This document shows, piece by piece, positions 55,753-64,000 of a stretch of DNA of 64,000 bases. The stretch covers positions 124,001 to 188,000 of the forward strand of contig NZ_CP032744.1 of the NCBI RefSeq assembly GCF_003641145.1. Direction: 5' to 3'. Positions within the stretch are counted from its first letter, which is position 1. Each line of letters begins with the position of its first letter. The stretch is from Lactiplantibacillus paraplantarum. GTDB lineage: Bacteria; Bacillota; Bacilli; Lactobacillales; Lactobacillaceae. Both the position numbers and the translations under genes were made by a program. A model generated the notes under the pieces. That model made no database searches and was not told the DNA's origin. It was given only the letters and a program-made list of their open reading frames with translations.

Positions 55753-58700
55753 ATGCGATTAATCGATTTCAAGACTTGGATAATGGGGACGGCCGCCATG
55801 TTGACGTTGGTTGTGACAAACCAAACGGCGAATGCGGCGGATACGGCCACCGCAACCACTACTGAAACAACTCAAACTTCTGGTTCGAGTACCCTTGCCA
55901 ATCACGTGGTGTTGCAACAAACTACGAGCAGTAGCAGTAGCAGTAGCAGTAGCAGTAGCAGTAGCAGTAGCAGTAGCAGTAGCAGTAGCAGTAGCAGTAG
56001 CAGTACGAAAAAAACAGCAACTGGTGCTGTTACGGAAACGGCGACTAGCAAAGCGGTCACAGCGTCTGAGTCATCAGCCCAATCATCGACCACAACGGAC
56101 ACTAGTCAAACGACTTCGGTTGCGGCAGTTACCCAAACAACGGACAGTACTGATACGACAGCGACGTCCCGGGCAACAGCTACTAACCAAGTAGCCCAAC
56201 AAGCGGCTGGTGTGAAGGCAAGTAACGAACAAGCAGCGACACAGAATCAGCAACAAACGACCAATATGTACAGTGGTGTTGTGACCAGTCAAAAAGATTC
56301 GGCCTCAACGTCTACTATTACGAATCAGTCAACTGCGTCTGCGGCGATGCTATCCAAGTTGAGTCGGACTAGTCTTCGCAGTTTAGCACAACGAGCAACG
56401 GTCGCTATTAAGGGGCTTGATGCCACCGACGCAACGGTGACTGACGACAATGGTGTCACGTATAGTGCTACGGACGTATTGAGCTTGTATGCAAACTATA
56501 TTGCGAAGTACCATTGGTCGATAGCCGATGGTGTTGAGGTGACTGCTGGCAGTACAGCAACAGTGACTTTGCCTGAGAATGTTGTCTTTACCAATGGTAC
56601 TCAGCATATTGATGTCAAAAAATCAGATGGAACAGTTGTCGGAACTTTTACGGCTGAAACTGGTAGTCAAACCGGGACACTGACTTTTAATGATTATTTT
56701 GCAACTAGTGATGGCTACAATCGTCAAGGAAACTTAACGTTTTATGTCACTGGGACTAGCGCGACAACTGGAAGCAATACGGTTGGTATTAATAAGGTTG
56801 GTTGGGCAGATAGTAATAGTTTAGATGCCGATGGTAATCCTACCAAAATGATCTGGCAAGTTGTCGCAAACATTAACAGTGCGAAGTGGCAGCAAGTTGC
56901 GATTGTCGACCAGCTGGGGCTTTATCAAACGCACGAAGGTACCATGACGTTGGAAACTGGTCATTATACTGACGGCGCCTTTGTTAAAGACGCGGCATTG
57001 GGAACTTATGATTTTGCGACTCAGCAGTTTACTTACGCTGATGGGGTATCAACACCACAAGTAAGCGTGACGGTAGTGGGACAGCAAATGACAATTAATA
57101 TTGACCAATTAGATACAGCGGTCAATATATTTTATGAAGTTGGCCTGATCGCGGGACACACGTACACCAATAATGCGGGTGTAACGTATGCACCTGTCAC
57201 TGGAGATGCGACTGATCCCAATGAAGGCAGTTCGACAGGCGAACCAAAGAGCGAACAGTCGAACGCGGCCGTTAGATTTGGTGGTTCTGGAACTGCCAGT
57301 GATGACATTCAAAGTTATAGTTTGGTTATCACTAAAACTGATGGTGATGGCCAGTCAGTTGCTGGTGCCACTTATCAACTAGAGGATAGCACGGGTACGG
57401 TACTTCGGACTGATTTGGTGACCGATTCAGCTGGACAGCTACGTATCGGCAACTTGTCGGCGGGGACGTATATGTTAGTTGAGACGGCGGCTCCGAGTGG
57501 CTACCAGATCGACATGGGCAAACATGTCTTCACGGTATCTGCAGCACAAGCAACGGCCAACGTGGTCACAGGACGTGTGGTTGACCAACGGATTGCCAAG
57601 ACAACACTTACTGTTAACAAGGTTTGGGCTGACGTGCCAGTCGGTGTGCAAACACCGACCGTCGAAGTGACGTTACAACGCAATGGTCAAGCCTATCAGA
57701 CCTTGCAATTGACGTCAGCAAATGGCTATACGGGCACCTTCAGTGATTTAGATGTGACGGATGTTAATGGCAACACGTACACTTATACGGTGACCGAAAC
57801 CGCTATTACCGGCTATATCAGTAGTCAAACAACTAGTGATGAGACGGTGACGCTAACGAATACGTATCAAACCGGAAAATTAACGGTGGTCAAGACGGAT
57901 TCGAGTGGTGCTAATCGGTTAGCCGGAGCGGTTTTTGCGGTGAAAAATGCTGCTGGAACGCTGGTTGCACAATTGACGACGGATGCGACTGGTCAGGCAC
58001 AGCTCACAGGTCTCGTACAAGGAACCTATACGGTCAGCGAAATTCAAGCGCCGGATGGTTACTTGATCAATACGCAAGCGCAAGTGGTCGTGTTGGATGA
58101 ACAGAGCACGTATCAAGGTCAGTTAGTTTTTACTGACGAGGTCGAGCCGAGTGAACCGAGCGAACCAAGCGAGCCGAGCGAGCCGAGCGAACCGAGCGAA
58201 CCAAGTGAACCAAGCGAGCCAAGTGAACCAAGTGAACCAAGTGAGCCAAGTGAACCGAGTGAACCAAGTGAGCCGAGTGAGCCAAGTGAACCAAGCGAGC
58301 CGAGTGAACCGAGCGAACCGAGTGAACCAAGCGAGCCGAGTGAACCAAGTGAACCGAGCGAACCAAGTGAGCCGAGTGAGCCAAGTGAACCAAGCGAGCC
58401 GAGTGAACCGAGCGAACCGAGTGAACCAAGCGAGCCGAGTGAACCAAGTGAACCGAGCGAACCAAACGAACCAAGTGAACCGGTGTTGCCGGGCCACACT
58501 GATAAGGAAACAAATTTAAATCAGATTGTTACAACGAAGATTGAGGCGGCTAAGTTAGCTAAGCAATCTAATTTAGTTGCCATGACTCAACTAACGAAAA
58601 CGTTAGGACGGCCAACGCAACTAGTAGCAACTTCTAAATCAGTGGCTAAAGCAACTAATCGAAAGTCGGCGCAACAATTGCCACAGACTAGTGAACAATC

Positions 58701-58776
58701 GATGGATTGGCTTATGATTTTAGGCTGGCTATTGCTAGGACTAACAGTTGTTATTCGTCAACGACGTTTTAATTAA
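55753..58776 (+). CDS. LPXTG-anchored adhesin with Ser tract, CnaB domains and Glu-Pro-Ser repeats
   Basis: 1007 residues. Signal peptide 1-~28 (ends TANA-AD). Ser/Thr-rich region with 26 consecutive Ser at 59-84. An adhesin-like beta region ~205-510 (TLPENVVFTNGTQHIDV) resembles Cna/Sdr-type collagen or fibrinogen-binding modules. Three CnaB/SpaA-like modules lie at ~520-615, ~620-707 and ~709-790, with Lys (ITKTD, VNKVW, VVKTD) and Glu (VETAAPSGY, VTETA, VSEIQAPDGY) fit for isopeptide bonds. A stalk of 37 Glu-Pro-Ser/Asn repeats covers 798-908. The sortase signal LPQTSE (976-981), a hydrophobic helix and RQRRFN end it. ATG 55753 follows GGAAGGGGGGG. It probably mediates adhesion to host or plant surfaces; ligand unknown. 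Confidence 0.9.
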   Translation: MRLIDFKTWIMGTAAMLTLVVTNQTANAADTATATTTETTQTSGSSTLANHVVLQQTTSSSSSSSSSSSSSSSSSSSSSSSSSSTKKTATGAVTETATSKAVTASESSAQSSTTTDTSQTTSVAAVTQTTDSTDTTATSRATATNQVAQQAAGVKASNEQAATQNQQQTTNMYSGVVTSQKDSASTSTITNQSTASAAMLSKLSRTSLRSLAQRATVAIKGLDATDATVTDDNGVTYSATDVLSLYANYIAKYHWSIADGVEVTAGSTATVTLPENVVFTNGTQHIDVKKSDGTVVGTFTAETGSQTGTLTFNDYFATSDGYNRQGNLTFYVTGTSATTGSNTVGINKVGWADSNSLDADGNPTKMIWQVVANINSAKWQQVAIVDQLGLYQTHEGTMTLETGHYTDGAFVKDAALGTYDFATQQFTYADGVSTPQVSVTVVGQQMTINIDQLDTAVNIFYEVGLIAGHTYTNNAGVTYAPVTGDATDPNEGSSTGEPKSEQSNAAVRFGGSGTASDDIQSYSLVITKTDGDGQSVAGATYQLEDSTGTVLRTDLVTDSAGQLRIGNLSAGTYMLVETAAPSGYQIDMGKHVFTVSAAQATANVVTGRVVDQRIAKTTLTVNKVWADVPVGVQTPTVEVTLQRNGQAYQTLQLTSANGYTGTFSDLDVTDVNGNTYTYTVTETAITGYISSQTTSDETVTLTNTYQTGKLTVVKTDSSGANRLAGAVFAVKNAAGTLVAQLTTDATGQAQLTGLVQGTYTVSEIQAPDGYLINTQAQVVVLDEQSTYQGQLVFTDEVEPSEPSEPSEPSEPSEPSEPSEPSEPSEPSEPSEPSEPSEPSEPSEPSEPSEPSEPSEPSEPSEPSEPSEPSEPSEPSEPSEPSEPSEPSEPSEPSEPSEPSEPSEPNEPSEPVLPGHTDKETNLNQIVTTKIEAAKLAKQSNLVAMTQLTKTLGRPTQLVATSKSVAKATNRKSAQQLPQTSEQSMDWLMILGWLLLGLTVVIRQRRFN
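55927..56004 (+). repeat. (AGCAGT)13 hexanucleotide tract encoding 26 Ser
   Basis: Thirteen perfect copies in 78 bp. Slippage would change length by two Ser at a time without a frameshift. Confidence 0.97.
58144..58476 (+). repeat. 37 x 9-bp repeat encoding Glu-Pro-Ser (one Glu-Pro-Asn)
   Basis: 333 bp of GAR-CCR-AGY units. It includes two exact tandem copies of a 99-bp block (58261-58359 and 58360-58458, 11 units each), the mark of a recent segmental duplication. Confidence 0.97.
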
Positions 58777-58779
58777 ACA

Positions 58780-58820
58780 AAAAGGCTACTGAAACTGTAT
58801 AGTTTCCAGTAGCCTTTATT
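58780..58820. terminator. Bidirectional terminator between the adhesin and the small ORF
   Basis: AAAGGCTACTGAAACT/AGTTTCCAGTAGCCTTT stem with A5 and T3 flanks. It ends both the adhesin transcript and the minus-strand small-ORF transcript. Confidence 0.88.
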
Positions 58821-58844: not shown

Positions 58845-58976
58845 TTACCGACGATTTTGAGATGTTCGTTGGTCATGCTTGATTCTGACTGGTTGAGCAG
58901 CGGGCACTCGGTTGCCAACAACAACTCCAGCAACCGCAGCTAATCCAGCTGCTGCTAATAAACCTGCTAATAACAT
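58845..58976 (-). CDS. Small 43-residue hydrophobic/cationic peptide ORF
   Basis: Translation on the minus strand starts at ATG 58976 behind GAGGAGG (8-base spacing) and stops at TAA 58845. The peptide begins MLLAGLLAAAGLAAVAG, which can form one membrane helix or a signal-like segment. It continues VVVGNRVPAAQP and ends in a basic, polar tail (about 14 residues with five Arg/Lys). It has its own promoter (59025-59053) and terminator (58780-58820). It lies 93 bp downstream of the rgg-like gene on the same strand. It could be a signal-peptide precursor, a small membrane protein, or a toxin-like peptide. I do not recognise the family. Confidence 0.65.
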   Translation of the reverse strand: MLLAGLLAAAGLAAVAGVVVGNRVPAAQPVRIKHDQRTSQNRR

Positions 58977-59024
58977 GGGCAAGACCTCCTCAATAGTTGT
59001 AAGCACTCGTCTTTGAATACTTGC

Positions 59025-59053
59025 AGTTTAGGCGACTTATTAACAAAATGCAA
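59025..59053 (-). promoter_or_regulatory. Promoter of the 43-residue ORF
   Basis: Minus strand: -35 TTGCAT (59048-59053), 17-bp spacer, -10 TAAACT (59025-59030), 49 bp before the ATG. The -35 lies just before the end of the upstream regulator gene. Confidence 0.5.
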
Positions 59054-59068
59054 TTATTTCACCGTAAA

Positions 59069-59911
59069 TTAGTGAGAATTTGAATAACTTGAAATATTCT
59101 TAAGCAATTGCCGGTTATTGTTCATTCTGGCAAGGGCAGCGGCATCATTTAAATACTCGTGAATTTTAGCGGGATCTTCGGTTAGCTGGGCTTGTAAGAA
59201 TTTAATGCGAGCCGCATAGTAAGTTACGTGGAAGCGAGCACAAATTTCAATCCCATAGTCAAGCAGTTGAAGACTGCGAGGCGTGTCACCAATATTGGCA
59301 TAAAAAGCGCCAGTGTAATAAGCCAGATTGATTACACGCCAGACACTGGCAGTCGTTTCTAGTGGTAAGTTTGGCAGGGCGTGCCGAACTTTTTCAAAGT
59401 AATATTGGGCCTTATCGTTATCTTTATTCTGTTGATAGGCAATCCCAATGCCACAATAGGCCAATTGTGTATAGATTGTAATGTGGCTTTCATCTAAATC
59501 GGTAATGATTTGGTCAAAATTAAAAATGACATCGCTAATTGGATGGTGATTAAGTGCCGCAACGTAACCTTTTAGGTAGCAGTATTGTAATTTTGTTTCA
59601 CGGTCGTGACGCGGCATATCCGCTACTTTTTCAAGCTGGACTTCAGCATCCTGATACTCTGTCGTAATCAGATCGAATTCAACTTGTTCCAAGACTTTTA
59701 AAACGGCGGCATCGGCCACACGTTCAGTTGGAAAGACATCTTCTAATTGCAGGTTTAGTCGCTGACAAAGCTGGGCAACGATTCGTATCGCGGGAGCCTT
59801 GCCGTTGTTTTCAAACTTGCTTAGTGTCGCCTGAGTACAAATGCCGTCTGCAAGGGCTTTTTGAGAAAGTCCGAGGGCTTTGCGACGGGCAATGAAAAGC
59901 TCAATATTCAT
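59069..59911 (-). CDS. Rgg/RRNPP-type regulator (HTH plus TPR)
   Basis: 280 residues. XRE-type HTH 1-60 (NIELFIARRKALGLSQKALADG, split here: ARRKALGLSQKALADGICTQ then ATLSKFENN). Residues ~65-275 are helical TPR-like repeats (TQLAYCGIGIAYQQNKDNDK, then AQYYFEKV and AYYTGAFYANIGDTPRSLQL). This is the plan of Rgg, PlcR and PrgX proteins that bind imported oligopeptides and then switch transcription. The RBS AAGGAAG precedes ATG 59911. A small peptide ORF lies directly downstream and two OppA genes directly upstream. The peptide ligand is unknown. Confidence 0.85.
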   Translation of the reverse strand: MNIELFIARRKALGLSQKALADGICTQATLSKFENNGKAPAIRIVAQLCQRLNLQLEDVFPTERVADAAVLKVLEQVEFDLITTEYQDAEVQLEKVADMPRHDRETKLQYCYLKGYVAALNHHPISDVIFNFDQIITDLDESHITIYTQLAYCGIGIAYQQNKDNDKAQYYFEKVRHALPNLPLETTASVWRVINLAYYTGAFYANIGDTPRSLQLLDYGIEICARFHVTYYAARIKFLQAQLTEDPAKIHEYLNDAAALARMNNNRQLLKNISSYSNSH

Positions 59912-59969
59912 GCCATCACGCTTCCTTTACATAGTTAAGTCATATTTGGAACTGCTTTCATTTAACTTA

Positions 59970-59998
59970 ATTAAAAACTTTTTATATAATTTTGTCAA
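59970..59998 (-). promoter_or_regulatory. Promoter of the Rgg-like gene
   Basis: Minus strand: -35 TTGACA (59993-59998), 17-bp spacer, -10 TTTAAT (59970-59975). Confidence 0.65.
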
Positions 59999-60045
59999 TA
60001 TTTAAACATAATTTTACATATTCTAAAAATATATGCTAGCCATAT

Positions 60046-60080
60046 AAAAAACGCTCGCTAGCAACGGCTAGTGAGCGTTT
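60046..60080 (-). terminator. Terminator of the first OppA gene
   Basis: ACGCTC(A/G)CTAG stem with T6 on the minus strand. Confidence 0.85.
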
Positions 60081-60098
60081 ATGAGTGATGATGATATC

Positions 60099-61760
60099 TT
60101 ATTTAGCCATGTAAGCATTTTTGAAATTGTAGTTTGTACCAGAAGTATTGTAAATCAGGCCTTTTAGCTTAGGATTGACCATTTGTGCAATTGTTGCTTG
60201 GGTTAATGGCGCGACACATTCATCAGTACCGATTATTTTTTCGGCTTTGCCTAATGCAGTCCAACGTACCGTTTGGTTAGTAGCTTGTTCAGCCTGCTTG
60301 ACGGCCGCATCATAGTCGGTGTTCTTCCACTTGCCAAAATTATAATCATTTGTTGAAGTGAGAATGCCGAGATCAGAAATAGGATCGGCAAAGTCAGCTT
60401 GCCAGCCAGAGATAGCTAGTTGAAAATCACCGGAAGTTTCACGAGCCAGCCGGTTTTTAAATGGCAAGGTCACATCAGTGATTTTTAAGCCAGGGAGTTC
60501 CTTTTCTAGCTGCCCTTGAACATATTCGGCAATTTCTTTAGTTTGATCAATATTATCATGTGTCAGTGTTAAGGTTAACGATTTTTTGCCAACTTCTTTT
60601 AGTCCTTCAGTCCATAATTGCTTGGCTTTAGCGTTATTCTGAGCAACTGCTTCAGTAACAGTGTTTTCAGTTGCAAAGTCCTCATTAGTAGCTGGATCAG
60701 TGGCGAGACCAGTAGTAACGAATCCCTTTGGTACTGCTGAACCATCGGCTAATACATTTGAAACGAGTTGGTGCCGATCAATAGTCAAGGACATGGCTTG
60801 CCGTAGCTTAGCATTGGCTAACGCGGGAACCTTCTTCTGATTAAATTCCAAATAATTTAGTCTGGATGTCTTGCGGAGCACTAACTTGGGGTTGTTCTTC
60901 TCGTTTTTAACTTGTTCACCACTTAACGTTGCCATATCGAGTTTATTGCTTTGGAACAAGTTGAAGCCAGTCGTAGTTGATTTAACGACTTGGTCATTGA
61001 TCTTTTCTAAGTAAACGTGTTGCTTGTCCCAATATTTAGGATTGCGGTTTAAAGTCCAGGTCGTATTTGTTCCTTTCCATCCCTGCATGGTGAAGGGACC
61101 GTCATAGACCATCTTGGTGGCAGTTGTGCCGTAGCCCTTGCCATATTTCTGAACAGCGTGTTGGTTTTGTGGGAAGAAGATCGCGAAGCCCATTAGCAGT
61201 TTGAAGTAGGCTAGTGGTTTATCAAGCGTCACGGTCAGCTTATATTTGCTATCGGCCTTGATACCTAAACTAGCCACTTTGGCTTTACCATTAGTGATTT
61301 GGTCAGCATTTTTGATACCGGAATAAAGATAGGCGTATTGGGACGCGGTTTTTGGATTGATGGTTCGCCGCCAGCTGTAGACAAAGTCTTGTGCAGTTAC
61401 GGGATCGCCATTACTCCACTTGGCGTTTTTTCGGAGTGTAAAGGTATAGGTTTTCTTATCCTTAGAAATGACCGTGTGTGTTGCAATTCCCGGTGTAATC
61501 TTATTATTGGCACCGATGCGGTATAGTCCTTCCATCGTGTTGTTGATCATATTGGCACTAATGGAATCGGTGACTAGTGATGTATCTAGAGTTGTTAACT
61601 CGGAACCATTTTCGGACCAATTCAAGACTTGTTTTTGTGCCATCCCCGTGTGTAAGTTGCCAGCATTATCTGTTTTAGTCTGACTTTGACTACAGGCCGC
61701 CAGTAAAAGCCCAGTTGTTGCTGCAGCAGTCGCAGTTGTCAATATTACTTTCCATTTCAT
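60099..61760 (-). CDS. oppA: Oligopeptide-binding lipoprotein OppA, copy 1
   Basis: 553 residues. The lipobox LLAAC is at ~25 after a signal peptide. SBP_bac_5 family features: GDPVTAQDFVYSWRRTINP, MVYDGPFTMQGWKGTNTTW, GWQADFADPISDLGILTS. It captures peptides for an Opp ABC importer whose permease and ATPase genes are not in the window. ATG 61760 follows GGGGGGAAG. It has its own promoter and terminator. It is a tandem paralogue of the next gene, with most motifs identical. Confidence 0.93.
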   Translation of the reverse strand: MKWKVILTTATAAATTGLLLAACSQSQTKTDNAGNLHTGMAQKQVLNWSENGSELTTLDTSLVTDSISANMINNTMEGLYRIGANNKITPGIATHTVISKDKKTYTFTLRKNAKWSNGDPVTAQDFVYSWRRTINPKTASQYAYLYSGIKNADQITNGKAKVASLGIKADSKYKLTVTLDKPLAYFKLLMGFAIFFPQNQHAVQKYGKGYGTTATKMVYDGPFTMQGWKGTNTTWTLNRNPKYWDKQHVYLEKINDQVVKSTTTGFNLFQSNKLDMATLSGEQVKNEKNNPKLVLRKTSRLNYLEFNQKKVPALANAKLRQAMSLTIDRHQLVSNVLADGSAVPKGFVTTGLATDPATNEDFATENTVTEAVAQNNAKAKQLWTEGLKEVGKKSLTLTLTHDNIDQTKEIAEYVQGQLEKELPGLKITDVTLPFKNRLARETSGDFQLAISGWQADFADPISDLGILTSTNDYNFGKWKNTDYDAAVKQAEQATNQTVRWTALGKAEKIIGTDECVAPLTQATIAQMVNPKLKGLIYNTSGTNYNFKNAYMAK

Positions 61761-61792
61761 ATTAAAACTTCCCCCCAACTTGAATGGTCACG

Positions 61793-61821
61793 AGGATACA
61801 TTAAAGTAAGATTAAAATCAA
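61793..61821 (-). promoter_or_regulatory. Promoter of OppA copy 1
   Basis: Minus strand: -35 TTGATT (61816-61821), 17-bp spacer, -10 TATCCT (61793-61798). The spacer end TTTAATGTAT is shared with the promoter of copy 2. Confidence 0.6.
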
Positions 61822-61876
61822 AGATTGAATTCTAATAATTAAGGTAATTAACAGCAACTAGTTTGGAAAATAGTCA

Positions 61877-61910
61877 AAAAAGTATCGTAACTATTGCTAC
61901 GATACCTTTA
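61877..61910 (-). terminator. Terminator of OppA copy 2
   Basis: GTATCGTA...TACGATAC stem; minus-strand T6 follows. It separates the two oppA transcripts. Confidence 0.85.
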
Positions 61911-61980
61911 CGTTGTTAAATTAATTTAATGATGTATTTGATTAACCGACATAATATGCAAGTTGCTTATACGATAGCAC

Positions 61981-63642
61981 TTATTTGGCCATGTAGGCAC
62001 TCTTAAAGTTATAGTTGATGCCGGCTGTGTTGTAAATAAGTCCTTTCAATTTGGGGTTAACCATCTGAGCAATGACATTTTGTGAAAGTGGTGCAACACC
62101 TTGGTCAGTCCCCAATGTTTCAGCGGCAGTGGCTAGTGCTTGCCAACGTTTGGTTGTGCTAGTCGTGCTATTGGCCGTATCAATTGCTTGATCATAAGTC
62201 TTATTGGTCCACTTGCCAAAGTTGTAGTCGTTAGTTGACGTCATGATACCGAGATCGGAAATTGGATCGGCAAAATCAGCTTGCCATGCGGAGATGACCA
62301 ATTGGAAGTTACCAGCAATTTCTCGAGAAATTCTTGTTTTGTATGGTACCGTGACACTTTGAACTTTCAGTCCGGGGAGCTCTTTTTCTAGTTGCCCCTG
62401 AACGTATTCGGCAAGAGCCTTCATCTGGTCAGTATCGTCATGCGTCAAGGTCAAAGTAACCGATTTTTTACCGGTTTCTTTCAAGCCTTGTTGCCAAAGC
62501 TTTTTAGCTTTAGCAGTATCTTGGGTCACCGAGGATTTGACCGTGTTTTCAGTTGCGAAATCTTTACCAGTAGTGGGATCAGTTGCTAGACCAGTGGTGA
62601 CAAAACCTTTAGGTGTAACTGAACCGTCACCTAGAACATCATTGACTAATTGTTTACGGTTGAGCGTCAACGACATTGCTTGACGAATCTTTTTATTAGC
62701 AAGTAACTTAACTTTCTTTTGATTGAATTCCAAATAATTCAAACGGGAAGATTTACGGATTACTAACTTAGAATTATTCTTTTCATTTTTAACTTGTTGT
62801 CCAGAGAGGGTTGCCATATCAAGTTTGTTGCTTTGGAAAAGATTGAAAGCAGTTGTAGTTGATTTGACAACTTGATCGTTAATTTTGGTTAAGTAAACGT
62901 GCTTTTTATCCCAATAATTAGTATTACGCTTAAGCGCCCAAGTTGAGTTGGTACCCTTCCAACCGGTCATCTTGAACGGACCATCGTAGACCATTTTGCT
63001 AGAACTAGTCCCGTAATCCTTCCCGTATTTTTCAACGGCATGTTGGTTTTGCGGGAAGAATACGACGAAGCCCATTAATAATTTAAAGTATTGCATTGGT
63101 TTATCAAGCGTTACGGTTAACTTATACTTACCATCGGCCTTGATACCTAACGTACTAGCCTTGGCCTTACCACTGACAATCTTATCAGCATTTTTAATGC
63201 CGGAATACAAGTAAGCGTACTGCGAGGCAGTTTTAGGATTGACAGTTCGCCGCCAACCATAGACGAAATCTTTAGCGGTCACTTGGTCGCCGTTACTCCA
63301 CTTAGCATTTTTGCGTAGCGTAAATGTGTAAGTTTTTTTATCACTAGAAACAGTGGTCTTGGTGGCAATTCCAGGTGTGACCTTACTATTCTTCCCTAAA
63401 CGGTATAACCCTTCTTGGGAGTTGCTGATCATGGTACCACTAATCACGTCGGTTGCCAGAGATGGGTCTAAGGTAGTTAAGTCCTGGCCGTTTTCTGACC
63501 AATTGAGAACTTGAGTCTTGGCCATCTCGGACGTAGTATTGCCGGCGTTACTCGTACTAGATGAAGATTGCCCGCAACCCACTAATAAGACCCCAGTGGT
63601 TGCGGTTACTGCTGCGATTGTTGCAAATGATTTCCATTGCAT
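61981..63642 (-). CDS. oppA: Oligopeptide-binding lipoprotein OppA, copy 2
   Basis: 553 residues. Lipobox LLVGC at ~20. SBP_bac_5 motifs: GDQVTAKDFVYGWRRTVNP, MVYDGPFKMTGWKGTNSTW, AWQADFADPISDLGIMTS. It is very similar to copy 1 over the full length; differences concentrate in the signal peptide and scattered surface positions. ATG 63642 follows TTAGGGGGTAC. It has a separate promoter (63686-63714) and terminator. Two close binding proteins may widen peptide range or feed a peptide-signalling regulator such as the Rgg-like protein nearby. Confidence 0.93.
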   Translation of the reverse strand: MQWKSFATIAAVTATTGVLLVGCGQSSSSTSNAGNTTSEMAKTQVLNWSENGQDLTTLDPSLATDVISGTMISNSQEGLYRLGKNSKVTPGIATKTTVSSDKKTYTFTLRKNAKWSNGDQVTAKDFVYGWRRTVNPKTASQYAYLYSGIKNADKIVSGKAKASTLGIKADGKYKLTVTLDKPMQYFKLLMGFVVFFPQNQHAVEKYGKDYGTSSSKMVYDGPFKMTGWKGTNSTWALKRNTNYWDKKHVYLTKINDQVVKSTTTAFNLFQSNKLDMATLSGQQVKNEKNNSKLVIRKSSRLNYLEFNQKKVKLLANKKIRQAMSLTLNRKQLVNDVLGDGSVTPKGFVTTGLATDPTTGKDFATENTVKSSVTQDTAKAKKLWQQGLKETGKKSVTLTLTHDDTDQMKALAEYVQGQLEKELPGLKVQSVTVPYKTRISREIAGNFQLVISAWQADFADPISDLGIMTSTNDYNFGKWTNKTYDQAIDTANSTTSTTKRWQALATAAETLGTDQGVAPLSQNVIAQMVNPKLKGLIYNTAGINYNFKSAYMAK

Positions 63643-63788: not shown

Positions 63789-63797
63789 TTAACCAAA

Positions 63798-64000
63798 CTA
63801 ACGTTGCCATTGCATAGTATATTCCGGCTGATTAGTGGCTTGGTCAATGGTCTGATTGAGAACGCGGAAGCCACTGTGGTGATAAAATGCGACGGCTTGG
63901 CGATTAGCAATGTAAACGTTCAGCCGCAAGCATTGATGGTTGTTTTTAACCAGTGTCAACAACGCCGTGCCAATGCCCTGATGCTGGGCATCTTTACGAA
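63798..64000 (-). CDS. GNAT family N-acetyltransferase, C-terminal part only
   Basis: The gene runs off the right edge; 67 codons plus a stop (TAG, 63798-63800) are visible. The acetyl-CoA loop HQGIGTALL and the segment NVYIANRQAVAFYHHSGF are diagnostic of GNAT enzymes. The substrate cannot be told. It has no start in the window. Confidence 0.88.
   Translation of the reverse strand, partial: RKDAQHQGIGTALLTLVKNNHQCLRLNVYIANRQAVAFYHHSGFRVLNQTIDQATNQPEYTMQWQR

Follow-up and report, generated by a model that had tools for sequence, protein, structure and literature searches.

A candidate single-pass small membrane protein encoded beside a PlcR-fold regulator in Lactiplantibacillus

Described systems and the locus compared with them

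In the AimR, PlcR, NprR and Rap systems the pheromone gene lies immediately downstream of the gene of its regulator, according to the portion of the survey PMC9765709 that was consulted; the same portion reports no evidence of PlcR systems in Lactobacillales, where earlier studies had also placed PlcR. The locus described here comes from a 64,000-nucleotide stretch of the Lactiplantibacillus paraplantarum genome (the window; RefSeq assembly GCF_003641145.1, contig NZ_CP032744.1, positions 124,001 to 188,000, forward strand), in which the gene of a 43 aa protein (58845..58976 on the minus strand, stop included, with its ATG at 58976) stands directly behind that of a 280 aa transcription regulator with helix-turn-helix (HTH) and tetratricopeptide repeat (TPR) parts (59069..59911, minus strand); two genes for OppA-like lipoproteins lie upstream of the regulator on the same strand. 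The original prediction had drawn this arrangement, including the Shine-Dalgarno (SD) sequence GAGGAGG of the small gene (58985..58991, minus strand), and the layout was confirmed; its remark that the open reading frame (ORF) is unlisted does not hold, as several public genomes annotate it as a "hypothetical protein". With a probability of about one half, the sequence comparisons below point to an undescribed, genus-core, single-pass small membrane protein acting in the circuit of a PlcR-fold regulator, and not to a classical secreted pheromone.

The streptococcal pairs Rgg-SHP and ComR-ComS are similar in that a Lactobacillales HTH-TPR regulator stands beside a very small hydrophobic peptide, and ComR and Rgg2 are among the structural matches of the regulator; the regulator differs in having no Rgg family match in Pfam or NCBIfam. 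SHP precursors have a basic N terminus, of which there is none in the small protein in any of the 21 Lactiplantibacillus genomes examined. Set against PlcR-PapR of the Bacillus cereus group, the present system differs in that the small protein has no basic n-region, that it is the helix which is conserved, and that the protein ends in a hydrophilic, basic stretch. KdpF, CydX and AcrZ show the small single-pass pattern with the N terminus outside and the C terminus inside (N-out/C-in), and are like the protein described here in length, in the one helix and in the little N-terminal charge. CylR1-CylR2 of Enterococcus combines a cytoplasmic HTH regulator with a small membrane protein, like the present pair; however, CylR2 has no TPR domain, CylR1 is larger than the small protein, and against CylR2 the regulator gives a chance-level HTH match only (E 0.39).

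The small protein and its regulator

An ORF of 39-43 residues follows the orthologous HTH-TPR regulator in 21/21 genomes, beginning 78-95 nt past the regulator stop; the orthologs were found by a search with the regulator, and the other 20 are 77-96% identical to that of the window. As some genomes are near-identical pairs, the count of 21 overstates the number of independent events. Differences at codon positions 1, 2 and 3 of the small ORF amount to 1543, 994 and 4588, and the mean proportion of synonymous differences (pS) is 0.62 against 0.13 for nonsynonymous ones (pN), giving a pN/pS of 0.21; on these comparative grounds, codon position together with pS and pN, the ORF is a real protein-coding gene under purifying selection. 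The pS stays between 0.55 and 0.74 across column groups, with a pN/pS of 0.15 for columns 2-21, 0.38 for 22-25, 0.15 for 26-35 and 0.35 for the tail. Loss of the frame or of the ribosome-binding site, named in the original prediction as counting against the gene, was not seen within the genus, as both are kept in 21/21 genomes. Regulators without the small ORF were named there as well, and here the outcome is divided: every ortholog in the genus has it, whereas among related regulators of other genera (36-46% identity) the neighbours differ, and no counterpart of the ORF was seen in the loci read, which come from 18 of 32. In the flanks of five of nine paralogous regulators of the genus (L023, L025, L026, L028, L031) no equivalent small ORF was seen either. 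A leucine-rich, leader-like ORF at L072 was set aside; it precedes a gene resembling leucine biosynthesis.

A profile of the small protein, built from 16 of the 21 peptides after omission of five identical or near-identical ones (17 of the 21 regulators were likewise aligned, without near-identical rows), was searched against 397 Lactobacillaceae genomes and matched the 21 genus members, each with one copy at the regulator site, and one other genome (G246); the latter match, at E 0.006 and within a frame of 438 aa, is probably spurious and was discarded. For the small protein neither Pfam nor NCBIfam gives a family match, and the protein database holds 19 clusters of relatives named "hypothetical protein", whose named sources are Lactiplantibacillus or "unclassified Lactobacillus". 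Two of these (P0015 and P0016) have tails reading DRKSVV that resemble translated sequencing adapter, and are presumably artefacts in public protein sets. No description of the small gene was found among the papers listed, judging by titles, abstract openings and the consulted portions of PMC9765709, PMC11109227, PMC12837702, PMC10075063 and PMC12700828; the supplements were not searched, so the gene may sit in the "loose" RRNPP_detector list.

The small protein comprises a predicted helix (residues 2-21), a conserved PAAQPVRI segment and a basic tail ending in QNRR. Residues 1-21 contain no K, R, D or E in any of the 21 peptides, and 5-7 K/R follow residue 21 in each; from this charge distribution alone, under the positive-inside rule, an N-out/C-in topology is predicted. 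The charge bias of a single-pass membrane protein, with one hydrophobic helix, is thus found in 21/21 peptides, and AlphaFold2 places a helix at residues 3-22 (mean predicted local distance difference test score 68). The original prediction held that the hydrophobic N terminus suits a secreted precursor, with a small membrane protein as its alternative; of the two, the alternative fits better. As read from sequence, the N-terminal charge pattern is unlike that of a usual Sec signal peptide, and the 12 OppA and 10 surface-protein precursors compared all begin with K/R-bearing n-regions. Across 12 loci (that of the window plus 11 of the 13 OppA-bearing named loci, omitting the near-duplicates L059 and L067), mean pairwise identity is 87% for residues 2-21 of the small protein, 71% for its remainder and 82% for the regulator; in the adjacent OppA it is 84% for the mature part and 56% for the signal peptide. 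A discarded leader would be expected to match the last of these values; in its conservation the helix resembles a functional domain. Variation within the helix falls mainly on positions 8, 15, 18, 19 and 21, while 2, 4, 10, 13, 14 and 20 show single changes; positions 8, 15 and 19 share one face, and G5, A9, G11, A16 and G17 are invariant in the 21 peptides, a pattern as expected of a helix packing against something.

The regulator matches HTH_3 above the Pfam cut-off and TPR_1 only below it. Foldseek and VIA both rank PlcR as the best match of its predicted fold and also place Rap, ComR and NprR high; confidence in the HTH part of the model is low. Sequence identity to PlcR is 12-16%, a similarity at the level of the fold. 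Searched against chains of the PDB, the regulator alignment gave no match at E up to 0.01; the single sequence gave 10 chains at E up to 10, none of them PlcR and all at chance level. The model has the build of an RRNPP(A) receptor, an HTH followed by an RRNPP-fold TPR within about 250-500 aa, and the neighbouring receptor and small gene of such systems are present in 21/21 genomes, the propeptide nature of the small protein being putative. Of the earlier label "Rgg/RRNPP", the RRNPP part is therefore retained on the predicted fold; the Rgg part was given up, as neither Pfam nor NCBIfam gave a match to an Rgg model at E up to 1 (the presence of such a model in the copies used was unchecked) and the fold search favours PlcR.

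Taken as a small membrane protein, the product would be expressed from a promoter of its own, directly after the regulator gene, and would cross the membrane once by a helix rich in Ala, Gly and Leu, leaving the N terminus outside and placing the basic tail (PAAQPVRI...QNRR) in the cytoplasm; the helix may pack through the small residues G5, A9, A13, G17 and G21 against itself or another membrane protein. Its role in the circuit could be that of a target controlled by the regulator or that of a partner at the membrane that modulates the regulator through the cytoplasmic tail. This reading is favoured by the retention of the pair in 21/21 genomes while other neighbours change.

Several observations weigh against it. 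The summed hydrophobicity of the helix on the Hessa scale is -1.00, which is only moderate, a composition found in signal peptides too. The signal peptides of the surface proteins (10 loci aligned) keep a common conserved block, all with K/R at the start, so a conserved leader stays a possible explanation of the helix. Helix position 17, which never varies among the 21 genomes, is R in the representative of one L. pentosus-named cluster (P0007). No operator shared by the promoters of the regulator and the small gene was seen on inspection by eye, and the constant pairing could be simple adjacency.

Transcription and translation signals

A promoter-like site, TTGCAT-N17-TAAACT, lies upstream of the small gene at 59025..59053 (minus strand, read from 59053 down to 59025), and a terminator-like hairpin followed by a T run lies at 58781..58817 (minus strand). 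By an in-house script, sites of the form TTGNNN-N17-TA[ACG][AG]CT were found upstream of the small ORF in 21/21 genomes, with 42-50 nt between the end of the -10 element and the ATG; the spacer was free to be 16-18 and was 17 throughout. SD-like sites and hairpins with a T run were each found in 21/21 as well, three of the hairpins being weak (L019, L021, L022), in line with the promoter and terminator proposed earlier for the small ORF; these counts come without a shuffled control. Neither the TTGCAT-N17-TAAACT site nor the hairpin is listed by a consensus scan, the hairpin being missed because its loop of 9 exceeds the limit of the scan. As the hairpin follows directly after the stop of the convergent surface-protein gene, it probably serves both that gene and the small one.

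Conservation in the promoter region is confined to the -35, the -10, the CGCC before and the GCAAGTAT after the -10; little is conserved upstream of the -35, which argues against an upstream activator site of the PlcR kind. The bases near the -10 (CGCCTAAACTGCAAGTAT, 59017-59034, minus strand) are conserved beyond the promoter hexamers, and two genomes (L006 and L007) have a perfect 10-bp palindrome, ACTTGCAAGT, at the -10, with a 9-bp form, ACTGCAAGT, in many others; from sequence, a repressor site over the -10 of the small-gene promoter is possible. No regulon motif was found in the genome of the window, since the 18-mer CGCCTAAACTGCAAGTAT has one perfect match there, at the small gene, and three with 3 mismatches, against three for a reversed control; the oppA promoters were inspected by eye only. 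Upstream of the regulator itself (59912-60050, minus strand) lies an AT-rich inverted element of the ATATT-N5-AATAT type, degenerate in some genomes, together with a TTGAC-type promoter; both are discernible by eye in 15/21 genomes and not in the other six (L012, L015-L018, L020).

Neighbouring genes and rival explanations

The two OppA-like solute-binding lipoproteins upstream of the regulator (60099..61760 and 61981..63642, both minus strand) are each 553 aa in length with an SBP_bac_5 domain, and are included in the six SBP_bac_5 matches of the genome; the paper on strain WCFS1 gives seven OppA copies. By gene order and position, the two genes may correspond to lp_0200/lp_0201 of that strain. 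The OppA neighbours of the original prediction proved usual and not constant: within the flank examined, homologs lie upstream in 13 of 15 named loci, as two copies in 5 of the 13, whereas L. herbarum has none in 7.9 kb beside the pair, and L. garii is unjudgeable due to a contig end. The convergent surface protein (1007 aa, 55753-58776, plus strand) has runs of serine, long SEP repeats and, in place of LPXTG, the anchor motif LPQTSEQ; a convergent gene of LPXTG type is found in 10/15 named loci. An acetyltransferase-like gene lies upstream of the OppA pair (63790-64000, minus strand); in several relatives it separates OppA from the regulator or follows serC/serA-like genes (names assigned by eye), and because it changes place the stretch appears rearranged around a fixed core. 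Across the 15 loci as sequenced, regulator and small gene are the constant core, and OppA and the surface protein vary.

The small gene could also encode an RRNPP-type pheromone precursor. After export (by Sec without a basic n-region, or by a route like PptAB), a C-terminal fragment such as ...QNRR would be cleaved off, taken up again through Opp with the aid of the adjacent OppA, and bound by the regulator as in PlcR-PapR; this is judged unlikely, and less likely than the small membrane protein. The fold of the regulator is nearest to that of PlcR-PapR, OppA is a frequent neighbour, and QNRR forms the last four residues in 18/21 peptides after a variable stretch; in addition, the identity of the regulator TPR correlates better with that of the tail (r 0.57) than with that of the helix (r 0.29), shared ancestry being ignored in both values. 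The conserved block of the surface-protein leaders is consistent with a precursor too, and the gene order matches that of the AimR, PlcR, NprR and Rap systems in the consulted portion of PMC9765709. However, the first 21 residues carry no K/R, unlike the OppA and surface-protein precursors, and the best conserved part of the protein would be a disposable leader. The QNRR tail is missing from L. plajomi (tail identity 0.11), yet the TPR of its regulator shares 85% identity with the TPRs of three tail-bearing genomes; the representative of a 5-member L. plantarum-named cluster (P0017, of which the representative alone was seen) has an altered, longer tail without QNRR, and L. herbarum has no OppA beside the pair.

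A small membrane protein with a housekeeping role, for instance as part of a membrane complex or as its modulator, that neighbours the regulator by chance and has no functional link to it is a doubtful explanation. The strongly constrained helix and the promoter-like and terminator-like sites of the gene are consistent with it, as is promoter conservation limited to the -35/-10 and the transcript start, with little where an activator is expected. Chance adjacency is at odds with a place beside the regulator in 21/21 genomes, given that OppA and the surface protein are not constant across the 15 loci examined for them, and with a single copy per genome at that position; a subunit of a widespread complex would hardly be expected to be missing, one marginal match apart, from the remaining 376 Lactobacillaceae genomes. 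A tethered ligand, in which the cytoplasmic tail (PAAQPVRI...QNRR) of an N-out/C-in helix would be bound in the TPR groove of the regulator, holding it at the membrane or releasing it with membrane state, is improbable. A membrane toxin of a type I toxin-antitoxin pair with an antisense RNA as antitoxin is very improbable: toxins of this type are similar in size and likewise have one hydrophobic helix and a basic C terminus, and a promoter-like site on the plus strand (58774-58803, 9 of 12) would read antisense across the ORF, but this site sits within the terminator hairpin in an AT-rich stretch where chance sites are common (20 promoter-like sites in 6.5 kb by the consensus scan, 12 in shuffles), the gene is single-copy in its genome and at one locus in 21/21 genomes, and Rfam has no match in the window.

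The small membrane protein, as favoured here, represents an uncharacterised family present in all 21 genomes examined of a genus central to food fermentation and probiotics, and it gives a PlcR-fold regulator a testable partner. The pair bears either on a PlcR-like circuit with a peptide partner in Lactobacillales, for which the consulted part of the survey PMC9765709 reports no evidence, or on a membrane-side alternative to pheromone signalling. Should the tethered form be true, it would be an RRNPP-like circuit without export or re-import, and may represent an origin or a derivative of peptide quorum sensing in Lactobacillales.

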